Source: Candidatus Altimarinota bacterium (GTDB lineage: Bacteria > Patescibacteriota > Gracilibacteria > JAUYGZ01). From it: a DNA stretch of 64,000 bases. The translations under genes were made by a program, and so were the position numbers. The notes below the pieces were generated by a model. That model saw only the letters and a list, made by a program, of their open reading frames with translations, did not search any database and was not told the origin of the DNA. The stretch covers positions 743,096 to 807,095 of the forward strand of contig JARGOK010000001.1 of NCBI GenBank assembly GCA_029233985.1, written 5' to 3'. Positions 23,065 through 27,111 of this stretch are shown here, one piece after another; within the stretch, counting starts at the first letter, position 1, and each line of letters starts with the position of its first letter.

Positions 23065-24084
23065 TTAGAATAACCCTGGAAGGATTTCGGTTAGTTTTTT
23101 TAGCATTTCTTCAGTGAAATCGAGATGTGTAACAAACCTGATCAGCTGTGGCCCCATCCCAACTGTTTTCACTCCTTTCTCTTCTAAGGTTTTGAGGAAA
23201 ATCTCATTTGTGATGTCTTCTCTGATTTTGAAGATGACGATATTGGTTTCAACTGGAAGTACATCGAGGACATAGCTACATTTTTTGAGCGTTGTCGCGA
23301 TGATATGTGCTCGTTCGTGGTCTTCATCAAGCCGTTCGATATGATGATCGAGAGCGTAGAGTCCTCCTGCAGCAATGATTCCTGCTTGTCTCATGCCTCC
23401 GCCAATACGCTTTCTAATTCTTCGTGCCTCATTGATCTGCTTTTTTGTTCCCAAAAGAACTGACCCAACAGAGGCGCCGAGTCCTTTTGAAAGACAGACT
23501 GAGATAGTATCGAAGTATTGACCGAGCTCTGCTGGGCTTTGATGCTTGGCAACAAGGGCATTGAAAACCCTTGCTCCATCTAGATGAAGAGGGATCTCGT
23601 TTTTTTTGCATACCTTTGCTATTGCTGCAATTTCTTCTAATTCGTAACATGCCCCACCTCCTTTATTGGTAGAGTTTTCGAGAGAGACGAGTGCTGTATG
23701 AGGGAAATGAACATTATCGGCATTTATACTTTCTCGGACTTGCTCTGAGGTTATCTTTCCTTGATTCCCAGGCAGGGTTTTGACCGATGCACCAGCGTTT
23801 GCAGCCACACCTCCTCCTTCGTAGAGATGCACATGAGAATCCTGATGACAGATCACTTGATCCCCAGGTTTTGCATGTAACATGATGGCGATTTGGTTGG
23901 TCATAGTGCCCGATGGACAGTATAAAGCGGCTTCTTTCCCAAACATATCGGCAGCCTTTGCCTCAAGAGCATTGATACTGGGATCTTCGCCGAAGACATC
24001 ATCTCCGACTTCTGCGTCGAACATAAACTGCTTCATTTCCAGTGTTGGCTTGGTGACGGTGTCACTTCTGAGATCGATATTCAT
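23065..24084 (-). CDS. ltaE: Low-specificity L-threonine aldolase
   Basis: 339 residues from ATG 24084; the upstream extension lacks family sequence. It is a PLP enzyme that splits threonine or allo-threonine to glycine and acetaldehyde. It opens with DLRSDTVTKPT, has GDDVFGEDPS, LYCPSGTMTN and HLDGARV, and the PLP lysine lies in CLSKGLGASVGS. It is downstream of thrS on the same strand but a terminator lies between them. Together they make a small threonine-related pair. Confidence 0.92.
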   Translation of the reverse strand: MNIDLRSDTVTKPTLEMKQFMFDAEVGDDVFGEDPSINALEAKAADMFGKEAALYCPSGTMTNQIAIMLHAKPGDQVICHQDSHVHLYEGGGVAANAGASVKTLPGNQGKITSEQVRESINADNVHFPHTALVSLENSTNKGGGACYELEEIAAIAKVCKKNEIPLHLDGARVFNALVAKHQSPAELGQYFDTISVCLSKGLGASVGSVLLGTKKQINEARRIRKRIGGGMRQAGIIAAGGLYALDHHIERLDEDHERAHIIATTLKKCSYVLDVLPVETNIVIFKIREDITNEIFLKTLEEKGVKTVGMGPQLIRFVTHLDFTEEMLKKLTEILPGLF

Positions 24085-24180
24085 AGGATTGGGGGTTAAT
24101 GAATTGGAGAGAGTAGTATAAGTATTTTGAAGGATTTGAACAGTTGGGAAGGCCACCAGGACTGTGGGCAAACAAATATT

Positions 24181-24222
24181 CAAAAAACAGAGAAAGCAGG
24201 TGAGCTCTCTCTGTTTTTTTTA
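24181..24222 (-). terminator. Terminator of thrS
   Basis: On the minus strand, ACAGAGA...TCTCTGT stem followed by a run of six T; it starts 14 bp past the thrS stop. Confidence 0.75.
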
Positions 24223-24235
24223 TTTTAAACAACAG

Positions 24236-26023
24236 CTAGAGCTTTCTTTCTTTTATTTCCGTCACAACCTCAGAGACAAATTGCTCGAGATCAATAGCCT
24301 TTTCCTCCTTCGTTTTATAAGACCTGGCATTGACCTGTCCTGATTCAGATTCTTTATCACCGATCACGAGCATATATGGAATTTTTTGCTTTTCCGCATA
24401 ACGGATCCGCTTTCCAAGACTATCATCTGGAGGAAGGATTTTTGTGCGAACCCCTTGTTCTCTGAGCATGGTTCGGACCTTGATGGCGTACTCCTCGTGT
24501 GGTGCTGCAATTGGGATCACTTGGACTTGAACTGGTGCAAGCCAGGCAGGGAAAGCTCCAGCAAAGTGCTCTATAGCTACTCCCATGAAACGGTGACTCG
24601 ATCCGAGAATCGCTACGTGAAGGACTGCTGGGCGATGCTTTTCTCCGTCGTCTCCAATGTAGCTCATGTCGAAATTTTCGGGTTGAACGAAGTCGAGCTG
24701 CACTGTAGTAAGCTGCCATTTGCGCCCTATGGCGTCTTTTACTTGGATATCGATCTTTGGCCCGTAAAAGGCTGCTTCGCCTGTCTCAACGGTGTATTCA
24801 GCACCCCATTTCTTTACGCTGGAAATGAGGGTTGCTTCAGCTTTGTCCCAGAGTTCGTCATCTCCAAAGTATTTTTCTTTATTTTCTGGGTCGCGAATCG
24901 AGATGTCGACCTTAAAGTCCTCGAAGCCGAAGGTTTTGTAAGTGCGTTCCATCAGTCCAAGAATCATTTCAATCTCGGATTCTATTTGGTCGTGTCGTAC
25001 GAAATGATGGGTGTCATCTTGAGTGAGAGCCTTCACTCGAGTGAGTCCTGAGACTTCTCCGGATTTTTCGTTTCGGTAGCAGGTAGTGTTTTCAGCGTAG
25101 CGAAGCGGAAGGTCACGATAACTGTGAGGGAGCGATGAGTAGAGCTCAAAGTGGTGAGGGCAGTTCATGGCTTTCATGACAAACTCGTGATCCTCTCCAT
25201 CTTTCATAACCGGCATCATGGCATCGTATTTCCCCATATGACCAGACTTTTCGTACAAAGCACGCTTGGCAATATGTGGAATCTCTACGAAGGAGTAGCC
25301 CAGCTTTTCTTTCTCTTCTCTCATGTATTTTTCAAGCTCGTACTTGATGATCTCCCCTTTGGGGTAGAACATCGGAAGTCCTGGACCGACGTTTTCGCTG
25401 AAGGTGAAGAGCTCAAGCTCAGTTCCAAGCTTGCGGTGGTCTCGCTTTTTGGCTTCTATCATCATTTTTTCGTATTCCTGGAGCTCCTCTACTGTTTCGA
25501 ATGAAACTCCGTAGATCCTCTGCATAGAGGCATTCGTGTCGTCTGCTTGCCAGTAGGCAGATGAGATATGACTGAGCTTGAAGGACTTTGGATCGATTTC
25601 CTTGGTGTTTTCGACATGTCCTCCTTCACAGAGGTCTACGAAGACAGGTTCTTCTTTTTGAGCGATGAAGTTTTCGTAAAAGCTGACTTGTGTGATCCCT
25701 TGTTGCTCGACGAATTTGTTCACAAGGTCGACCTTGAAAGGTTGTTTGATTTTTTTGAGAAATGCGATGGATTCTTTGATGGGCTCGTCTCTCCGCACAA
25801 AATTTTGCCCTTGTTGGACGTATTTCTTCATTCTTTTTTGAAGAAGAGGAAGGTCCTCTGGAATGAGAGGCCGGGGCAGCTCAAAATCATAGTAAAATCC
25901 ATTTTCTGTCACAGGCCCTGTTCCGAGTTTTGCTTCGGGGAACATATCGAGGACTGCTTCAGCGAGCATATGAGCGAGGGAATGGCGGATATTGTAGAGG
26001 GCAGAGCCTTTATCGGGTTTCAT
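24236..26023 (-). CDS. thrS: Threonyl-tRNA synthetase lacking the TGS domain
   Basis: 595 residues. The common bacterial enzyme is about 640 and starts with a ~60-residue TGS domain; here the protein begins directly at the editing domain (HSLAHMLAEAV, the HxxxH motif). The class II catalytic core has MKAMNCPHH, DDTHHF and the C-terminal HRFMGVAIEHFAG, which supply the zinc ligands Cys, His, His. An anticodon-binding domain closes the protein. It charges tRNA-Thr in the cytoplasm. A threonine-rich leader peptide and attenuator precede it (26093-26206). Confidence 0.96.
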   Translation of the reverse strand: MKPDKGSALYNIRHSLAHMLAEAVLDMFPEAKLGTGPVTENGFYYDFELPRPLIPEDLPLLQKRMKKYVQQGQNFVRRDEPIKESIAFLKKIKQPFKVDLVNKFVEQQGITQVSFYENFIAQKEEPVFVDLCEGGHVENTKEIDPKSFKLSHISSAYWQADDTNASMQRIYGVSFETVEELQEYEKMMIEAKKRDHRKLGTELELFTFSENVGPGLPMFYPKGEIIKYELEKYMREEKEKLGYSFVEIPHIAKRALYEKSGHMGKYDAMMPVMKDGEDHEFVMKAMNCPHHFELYSSLPHSYRDLPLRYAENTTCYRNEKSGEVSGLTRVKALTQDDTHHFVRHDQIESEIEMILGLMERTYKTFGFEDFKVDISIRDPENKEKYFGDDELWDKAEATLISSVKKWGAEYTVETGEAAFYGPKIDIQVKDAIGRKWQLTTVQLDFVQPENFDMSYIGDDGEKHRPAVLHVAILGSSHRFMGVAIEHFAGAFPAWLAPVQVQVIPIAAPHEEYAIKVRTMLREQGVRTKILPPDDSLGKRIRYAEKQKIPYMLVIGDKESESGQVNARSYKTKEEKAIDLEQFVSEVVTEIKERKL

Positions 26024-26092
26024 GGGAAGGGATTAGAGAAATACTGGTGATTATTTGGGTTGTCGGGATAGTATTCCTCGACATCGTATAAT

Positions 26093-26115
26093 AAAAAAAG
26101 ACCTCTGACGAGGCC
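26093..26115 (-). terminator. thrS leader attenuator (intrinsic terminator)
   Basis: On the minus strand, GGCCUC-GUCA-GAGGUC followed by seven U, 70 nt before the thrS start codon. Its 5' arm (26115-26109) can instead pair with CGAGGUC (26156-26150), which lies just before the stop of the leader peptide. That pairing would prevent the terminator from forming. Confidence 0.8.
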
Positions 26116-26143
26116 GACTAATGAATTGTTTTGGGACATAGCA

Positions 26144-26206
26144 TCAGACGACCTCGGGAGAGAGGAGAGTTGTGGTGGTGGTCGATGTAGTAGAAACAGT
26201 GTTCAT
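26144..26206 (-). CDS. Threonine-rich leader peptide of thrS
   Basis: A 20-codon frame from ATG 26206 to TGA 26144: MNTVSTTSTTTTT then LLSPEVV. Eight of 20 residues are Thr, with five consecutive Thr codons (ACC ACC ACC ACA ACT). It starts about 13 nt after the predicted transcription start and has no Shine-Dalgarno. It is translated, by inference, as a sensor: a ribosome stalled for lack of charged tRNA-Thr would favour the antiterminator, while a ribosome that reaches the stop codon would mask 26150-26156 and allow termination. Confidence 0.8.
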   Translation of the reverse strand: MNTVSTTSTTTTTLLSPEVV

Positions 26207-26225
26207 ATGTGTTTATTTCATATAT

Positions 26226-26254
26226 ATCATAGCACTTTTTTGCTGTTTTTTCAA
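26226..26254 (-). promoter_or_regulatory. Sigma70-type promoter of the thrS leader
   Basis: Minus strand TTGAAA (26254-26249), 17-nt spacer, TATGAT (26231-26226). Confidence 0.8.
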
Positions 26255-26391
26255 TCTGCCACATCTAATGAGCCCCTAAAAAAGCCCCACAAAGATTGCT
26301 TTTTGTCGTTCTCTCCACTTGTGAATTATTGTTTTTGATCATTATTTCTGTCCCGTATTCAATCAAAACAAGAAGGAGATCTACTCGCCTA

Positions 26392-26420
26392 TTGACTTTT
26401 TTTAATATTCCTTCTATAAT
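26392..26420 (+). promoter_or_regulatory. Sigma70-type promoter of the sigma-factor-like gene
   Basis: TTGACT (26392-26397), 17-nt spacer, perfect TATAAT (26415-26420). Confidence 0.85.
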
Positions 26421-26429
26421 GCACATCTT

Positions 26430-26447
26430 ATGCCATTCATTCTTTAA
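26430..26447 (+). CDS. Possible 5-codon upstream frame
   Basis: ATG CCA TTC ATT CTT TAA begins about 3 nt after the expected transcription start and ends 1 nt before the ATG of the sigma-like gene. It could couple translation to the main gene, or be chance. Confidence 0.35.
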   Translation: MPFIL

Positions 26448-26448
26448 T

Positions 26449-27111
26449 ATGTCGGAAATACTATCAGACTTTGAAGCATTCGATAATGCAATACGCAAAG
26501 GTATTGATGCAGCTGCAAAAAATGAAACAAGAGACTTTATCATTCGTGATTACCTCAGTGAAATATTTTGTGCAGTCAGAAAAAAATGCCATATATACCT
26601 AGAAAAACATGAGAATATAGAGGGGGAGAAAAAGACTCTTGATAAGAATTTTGTCATTATGACGACTCGAAATCTTGTCATCGATAAATTCATGAGAAAA
26701 TGGAAGGTATCAAAAAACACCTCTCTCCTTATTGCCTTAAGAGAGAAAATAGAACAGGATCAGCAAACTTTTCACTCTGAAGAACATTTCTATAGAATAT
26801 TTTCCGAAGCTAAAAAAGTGCTCTCAAAAAAATCAAAGCTGGCATCCAAACAGGTTCACTGTTTACAATTGATTCTTGAAGGCAAGTCATACAAGGAACT
26901 CTCCGAGTATTATCCAAACGTAAAAATTGGAACACTTCGACAATGGGTGAGAAGAGCCCGAATGATGATTTGTGAGCATAACTCAGATATTACAGACTTT
27001 TTTGTAAAAAATGATTCACATTATAGTAACAAGGTTTTCTTATTGAGCGAAAGTGATAAAATCGCTGTTCGCCTCTTGGAAGATCCAGAGTCTTTTAATA
27101 TTGCAGAATAG
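26449..27111 (+). CDS. Sigma-70 family (ECF-like) sigma factor
   Basis: 220 residues from ATG 26449; the longer in-frame starts overlap the -10 box. The N-terminal half contains FVIMTTRNLVIDKFMRKWK, resembling the sigma region 2 pattern (typically TIARNLxIDxxRR). The C-terminal helix-turn-helix, KQVHCLQLILEGKSYKELSEYYPN then IGTLRQWVRRARMMI, is region 4-like. It would steer RNA polymerase to a small gene set. A small membrane protein lies 82 bp downstream and could be its membrane partner, which is inference only. ECF factors usually have an anti-sigma factor, and none is obvious here. Confidence 0.72.
   Translation: MSEILSDFEAFDNAIRKGIDAAAKNETRDFIIRDYLSEIFCAVRKKCHIYLEKHENIEGEKKTLDKNFVIMTTRNLVIDKFMRKWKVSKNTSLLIALREKIEQDQQTFHSEEHFYRIFSEAKKVLSKKSKLASKQVHCLQLILEGKSYKELSEYYPNVKIGTLRQWVRRARMMICEHNSDITDFFVKNDSHYSNKVFLLSESDKIAVRLLEDPESFNIAE

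Follow-up and report, generated by a model that had tools for sequence, protein, structure and literature searches.

The threonyl-tRNA synthetase gene, thrS, is a textbook gene for two kinds of control, the T-box and autoregulation by the protein acting on an operator. Attenuation of a synthetase gene is known from E. coli pheST with its leader pheM. In the same species, the leader of thrABC (thrL) is rich in Thr codons, carries a terminator and an antiterminator, and senses both Thr and Ile. His leaders at hisS*/hisZ, including a switch from T-box to leader, were described in bacilli in a work that also named the E. coli ThrRS as self-regulating (PMC2965389). Attenuators of leuS and trpS were reported in Streptomyces (PMC1262725), and in Streptomyces lividans leader attenuators were reported at leuS, trpS and alaS, together with a leader ORF before thrS, thrL, with 2 Thr in 18 residues and no clear U-rich terminator (PMC8079986). 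A literature search on leader peptides or attenuation in Gracilibacteria, Patescibacteria, Peregrinibacteria and the candidate phyla radiation, with most subscription journals outside the search, returned no relevant paper. The original prediction knew of no well-described Thr leader before a synthetase gene in the phylum; outside the phylum such a claim needs softening, because thrL of S. lividans was reported upstream of thrS. What is new here is the phylum, the strong form of the leader on thrS and its wide recurrence, the mechanism itself being already known.

The window analysed, a stretch of 64,000 nucleotides from the genome of a Candidatus Altimarinota bacterium (Gracilibacteria), carries thrS on the minus strand; the features of its leader are collected in Table 1. 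With a probability of about 0.9, we consider this leader to be a classical ribosome-mediated transcription attenuator, through which thrS expression follows the amount of charged threonine tRNA available. This reading rests on elements, predicted pairings, geometry, recurrence and specificity that are established at the level of the sequence.

Table 1. Coordinates in the window of thrS and of the features of its leader.
Feature	Position	Strand	Basis
thrS, threonine--tRNA ligase, 595 aa	24236..26023	(-)	TIGR00418 640.5 bits, cut-off 383.65
Sigma-70-like promoter TTGAAA-17-TATGAT	26226..26254	(-)	consensus 10/12, TG before second hexamer
Leader peptide ORF MNTVSTTSTTTTTLLSPEVV, then stop	26144..26206	(-)	translation
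Five Thr codons ACC ACC ACC ACA ACT, putative sensing site	26168..26182	(-)	sequence
Antiterminator 5' arm CGAGGTCG, over last leader codons	26149..26156	(-)	predicted to pair with 26116-26109
Antiterminator 3' arm CGGCCTCG, overlapping terminator 5' arm	26109..26116	(-)	minimum-energy leader structure
Intrinsic terminator stem-loop GGCCUC-GUCA-GAGGUC	26100..26115	(-)	terminator scan and folding
Terminator U7 tract	26093..26099	(-)	sequence

The promoter-like sequence, the leader frame and the terminator with its U tract had all been proposed in the original prediction and were found in place. The promoter would give a transcript starting near 26219, and no second promoter-like site was found on the minus strand between 26254 and thrS. 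Translation of the leader ORF, which begins with ATG and ends with TGA (26146-26144) after 20 codons, confirmed eight Thr, at codons 3, 6, 7 and 9-13, the last five being consecutive. The gap between the terminator and thrS was 69 nt. The coordinates given in the original prediction were correct.

The competing pairing was likewise present and was stronger than stated: the two arms pair over 8 bp instead of the predicted 7, and the pairing continues in a further 6-bp helix (CUGAUG/AUUAGU). The predicted duplex reached -13.5 kcal/mol, with a p value of 0.003-0.004 when compared with dinucleotide-shuffled sequences. When the entire leader was folded, the antiterminator was obtained (-27.9 kcal/mol, z = -3.97); when the 5' arm was hidden, the rest of the leader folded as the terminator (-9.9 kcal/mol, z = -2.6). 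The two structures are mutually exclusive, as both use the 5' arm of the terminator. The geometry also fitted attenuation as had been claimed, with the 5' arm of the antiterminator beginning 11 nt past the last Thr codon and ending 2 nt before the stop codon. These structures bear on the possibility that ThrRS regulates its own translation by binding a tRNA-like operator in its mRNA, the leader peptide being secondary, as E. coli thrS is controlled in that way. Nevertheless, the structures found, at some distance ahead of the start codon, are those of a terminator and of an antiterminator, an operator-like element was neither seen nor needed, and it is the run of Thr codons that recurs; such autoregulation is considered extremely improbable here.

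From this arrangement we infer that the leader is translated, that the ribosome stalls in it, and the direction of the regulation. Transcription of the leader would start at the upstream promoter, and translation would follow immediately. Under a shortage of threonyl-tRNA, the ribosome would stall among the Thr codons, with about 11 nt still separating it from the 5' arm of the antiterminator, which would then be free to pair with the 3' arm; no terminator would form and the polymerase would read into thrS. When threonyl-tRNA is plentiful, a ribosome at the TGA would cover the arm, the terminator would form and transcription would stop near 26093. A ribosome usually covers about 15 nt downstream of its P site. 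With such a footprint, a ribosome waiting anywhere in the Thr run should leave the arm exposed, and a ribosome that has reached the stop codon should cover it. If the leader is left untranslated, a weaker pairing of the same arm with the region around Thr7-Thr10 may restore termination. The folding of 3'-shortened leaders gave a 1:2 (protector-type) pairing, of 5 bp and then longer and interrupted, which was weaker than the antiterminator, the whole-fold energies being -6.4 to -9.7 kcal/mol.

In this genome TGA acts as a real stop codon, since 113 long ORFs end in it and a search for a UCA tRNA found none; several families of the class read TGA as an amino acid in thrS. The Thr tRNAs of the genome carry the anticodons UGU and GGU, and the Thr codons of the leader are not unusually rare in it. 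No Shine-Dalgarno-like site was found at the leader ORF, which is normal here because only 33 of the 769 genes of the genome have one.

A scan of 1.64 of the 1.66 Mb of the genome, in which short ORFs lying before a terminator were ranked by enrichment in a single residue, placed the thrS leader first (binomial p about 1e-6), followed by Glu- and Trp-rich frames that are not cognate to their genes. The thrS element thus exceeds what chance would give. Where short ORFs ahead of other genes held runs of Lys, Leu or Ser, these were attributed to chance, since they are not cognate to the downstream genes. A W-rich frame before C3:449029 was discarded, as a Gly/Cys-rich peptide is encoded there in another frame. 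A Gly/Cys-rich ORF of 36 residues (MKTTINGGGDGGGCGNCGCGFMLNGGCGGQCNCDCK, C3:448814-448924), placed before a terminator, is possibly a metal-binding or modified peptide.

Additionally, several features of the surroundings were recorded. An L-threonine aldolase-like gene (23065-24183) lies directly downstream of thrS, with a terminator-like hairpin (24219-24182) between them, and genes for the use and the charging of threonine thus adjoin. On the other side, a divergent ORF on the plus strand (26296-27111), with weak similarity (E = 9e-6) to sigma factors of RNA polymerase, and the thrS promoter have a common intergenic region. Shortly downstream of the window, a single open frame spans about 13,350 codons (C3:815657-855709).

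The upstream regions of 150 thrS genes from the same class were then compared, 149 of them being usable by length. A Thr-rich short ORF was present in 31 of the 149, distributed over nine families (f1, f3, f6, f7, f11, f15, f16, f17 and f22; examples are MKSTTTTTTTTTE, MSQRATTTTTTTTSR, MHLGTTTTTTTSQ and MHRPLTTTATTTTSV), and in 24 of these 31 the stop codon was followed by a terminator at a distance of 5-110 nt. The antisense strand of these regions, used as a control, gave two Thr-rich ORFs and none with a terminator. ORFs rich in any other residue and followed by a terminator numbered at most five (Leu, the best). Furthermore, runs of at least four identical residues upstream of thrS occurred 22 times for Thr and no more than twice for any other residue. 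Negative controls with His, Phe and Trp leaders at the hisS, pheS and trpS genes of the relatives gave none before a terminator, and neither did Val leaders at their valS genes, where the sole match was the genome of the window itself.

The stretch separating the last Thr codon from the terminator paired with the 5' arm of the terminator better than dinucleotide shuffles in 21 of the 24 leaders. The combined Fisher p value was about 1.6e-24 and overstates the independent evidence, since some of the leaders share a genus; the count of families does not. In each of the 24, the arm started 0-15 nt downstream of the last Thr codon, and it mostly straddled the stop codon. These leaders contained 23 different terminator 5' arms, each complementary to both of its partners, so the partners change together, which, on sequence grounds, amounts to covariation without an alignment.

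Regarding the conservation that had been proposed as a check, the Thr runs and the competing hairpins did recur, in nine families, but the check failed locally: in the closest genomes compared, two from other genera of the same family and one from the same order, thrS had no Thr leader. Conservation is thus class-wide but patchy. In a tree of 48 thrS proteins, with weak deep branches, the leader label required at least five changes, and the leader would accordingly have been gained and/or lost repeatedly. Outside the class, one genome of the phylum (L405) carried MKSLIVITTNTTTL and a terminator before thrS.

This comparison also served to weigh an explanation in which the hairpin terminates partially and constitutively, or marks where another transcript ends, the Thr-rich ORF being a chance frame. 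The lack of a homologous leader in the closest genomes would agree with it, as would the fact that simple terminator scans also pick up chance sites (7 sites were found here, against 4.2 expected in shuffles). Nevertheless, the enrichment in Thr upstream of thrS was specific to residue, strand and gene, the competing pairing recurred in the same geometry, and the hairpin sits behind a promoter and shortly before thrS. A chance origin is therefore very unlikely, and the class-wide comparison supported the original interpretation as ribosome-mediated attenuation of thrS.

Other families of the class appear to control thrS by T-boxes. T-box cores were found upstream of thrS in families f10, f12, f23 and f27 and in one genome of f3, the loci of the class matching the Rfam model (RF00230) with E values down to 2e-8, all below the gathering score. 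The T-boxes of f10 were clear by their core motif, and one T-box locus had no Rfam match. Among named thrS relatives, only T-boxes and no Thr leader with a terminator were found, and outside the class the T-box was the only recognised thrS element in most of the sampled genomes having one. A T-box riboswitch binding uncharged tRNA-Thr could thus be proposed for the thrS of the window as well. However, neither a match to the model with E up to 10 nor the GGGTGGAACC core was found in its leader, and the stretch between promoter and terminator (about 125 nt), shorter than a usual T-box leader, is taken up by the leader ORF and the hairpins; the probability left to a T-box is almost negligible. 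A search of 25900-26500 against Rfam up to E = 10 returned only an unrelated sRNA at E = 5, and the enterobacterial Thr_leader family did not match the leader of the window.

Units formed by a leader and a terminator were also found in the same genome before hisS, valS, pheA, ilvB and a threonine synthase gene. hisS (C3:355533-356840) lies behind the leader MIQKLSHHHSHFIHLI (HHHSHFIH), valS (C3:119392-122073) behind MKSFQTVVVVQKKTLV (VVVV), pheA behind MNTPLYSFGTFFYFSF, and ilvB (C5:152920-154668) behind a branched-chain leader, MNASFVILVNVVGIPLN, with a strong antiterminator. The threonine synthase gene (C5:105860-107680), with a LeuA-like C-terminal region, has an Ile leader (MKNTIIIIDL), which points to a role in isoleucine synthesis or to control by isoleucine. 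In the shuffle test, the antiterminator was significant at thrS, pheA, ilvB and the threonine synthase gene, and not at hisS (p 0.15) or valS (p 0.63). The leaders of hisS and valS were not seen in relatives, that of hisS not being conserved in genomes of the same family. The Phe-rich leader of pheA and its classical alternative hairpins were kept in three genera of the family (L321, L322 and L323), the leaders of the other two genera being MNASNNNWFYFYFFSA and MSISKAFYSFYFWNFSA. Since this unit is conserved, leader-peptide attenuation very probably belongs to the repertoire of the family, even where thrS has no leader.

These units are relevant to the possibility that the short ORF before thrS couples translation to the progress of the polymerase or to the access of Rho, and thus senses translation in general and not threonine. 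Leader ORFs can act in this manner, and the pausing of a coupled ribosome would affect any ORF. Against this, the codon bias is specific to Thr at thrS and cognate at the five other genes, and an intrinsic terminator with a U tract is present, so that a general sensing of translation is highly improbable. Taken with the attenuator proposed for thrS, it is likely that leader-peptide attenuation is a major form of amino-acid control in this class of ultra-small, Gracilibacteria/Peregrinibacteria-like Patescibacteria, that the Thr leaders of thrS have been gained or lost many times and are interchangeable with T-boxes at that gene, and that this genome has specialised in such attenuation, its cognate leaders numbering at least six, among them those of thrS, hisS and valS. 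The leader would be a third solution for the control of thrS, and its presence in nine families beside others with T-boxes makes a natural experiment on the replacement of one sensor by another. It also suggests that Patescibacteria with small genomes regulate through a tight coupling of translation and transcription.

Compared with the described systems, the T-box on thrS shares with this leader the gene and the signal, the charging of tRNA-Thr, and is found in sister families of the class; unlike it, the T-box is an RNA structure that senses uncharged tRNA without a translating ribosome, and it is absent from the thrS of the window. E. coli thrABC has in common a Thr-rich leader, a terminator and an antiterminator, but controls biosynthesis genes. 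E. coli pheST is likewise a synthetase unit whose leader peptide is enriched in the cognate residue and accompanied by alternative hairpins and an intrinsic terminator; it differs in sensing Phe rather than Thr and in belonging to another phylum, and no sequence homology is expected. The attenuators of leuS and trpS in Streptomyces and of hisS*/hisZ in bacilli are also leader attenuators of synthetase genes outside Proteobacteria, for other amino acids and in other phyla; in the bacilli, as proposed here, the leader replaces a T-box at the same gene. Finally, thrL of S. lividans resembles the leader of the window in having been proposed as a leader ORF with Thr codons ahead of thrS, but in the window 8 of the 20 residues are Thr, and both a clear terminator and an antiterminator are present.
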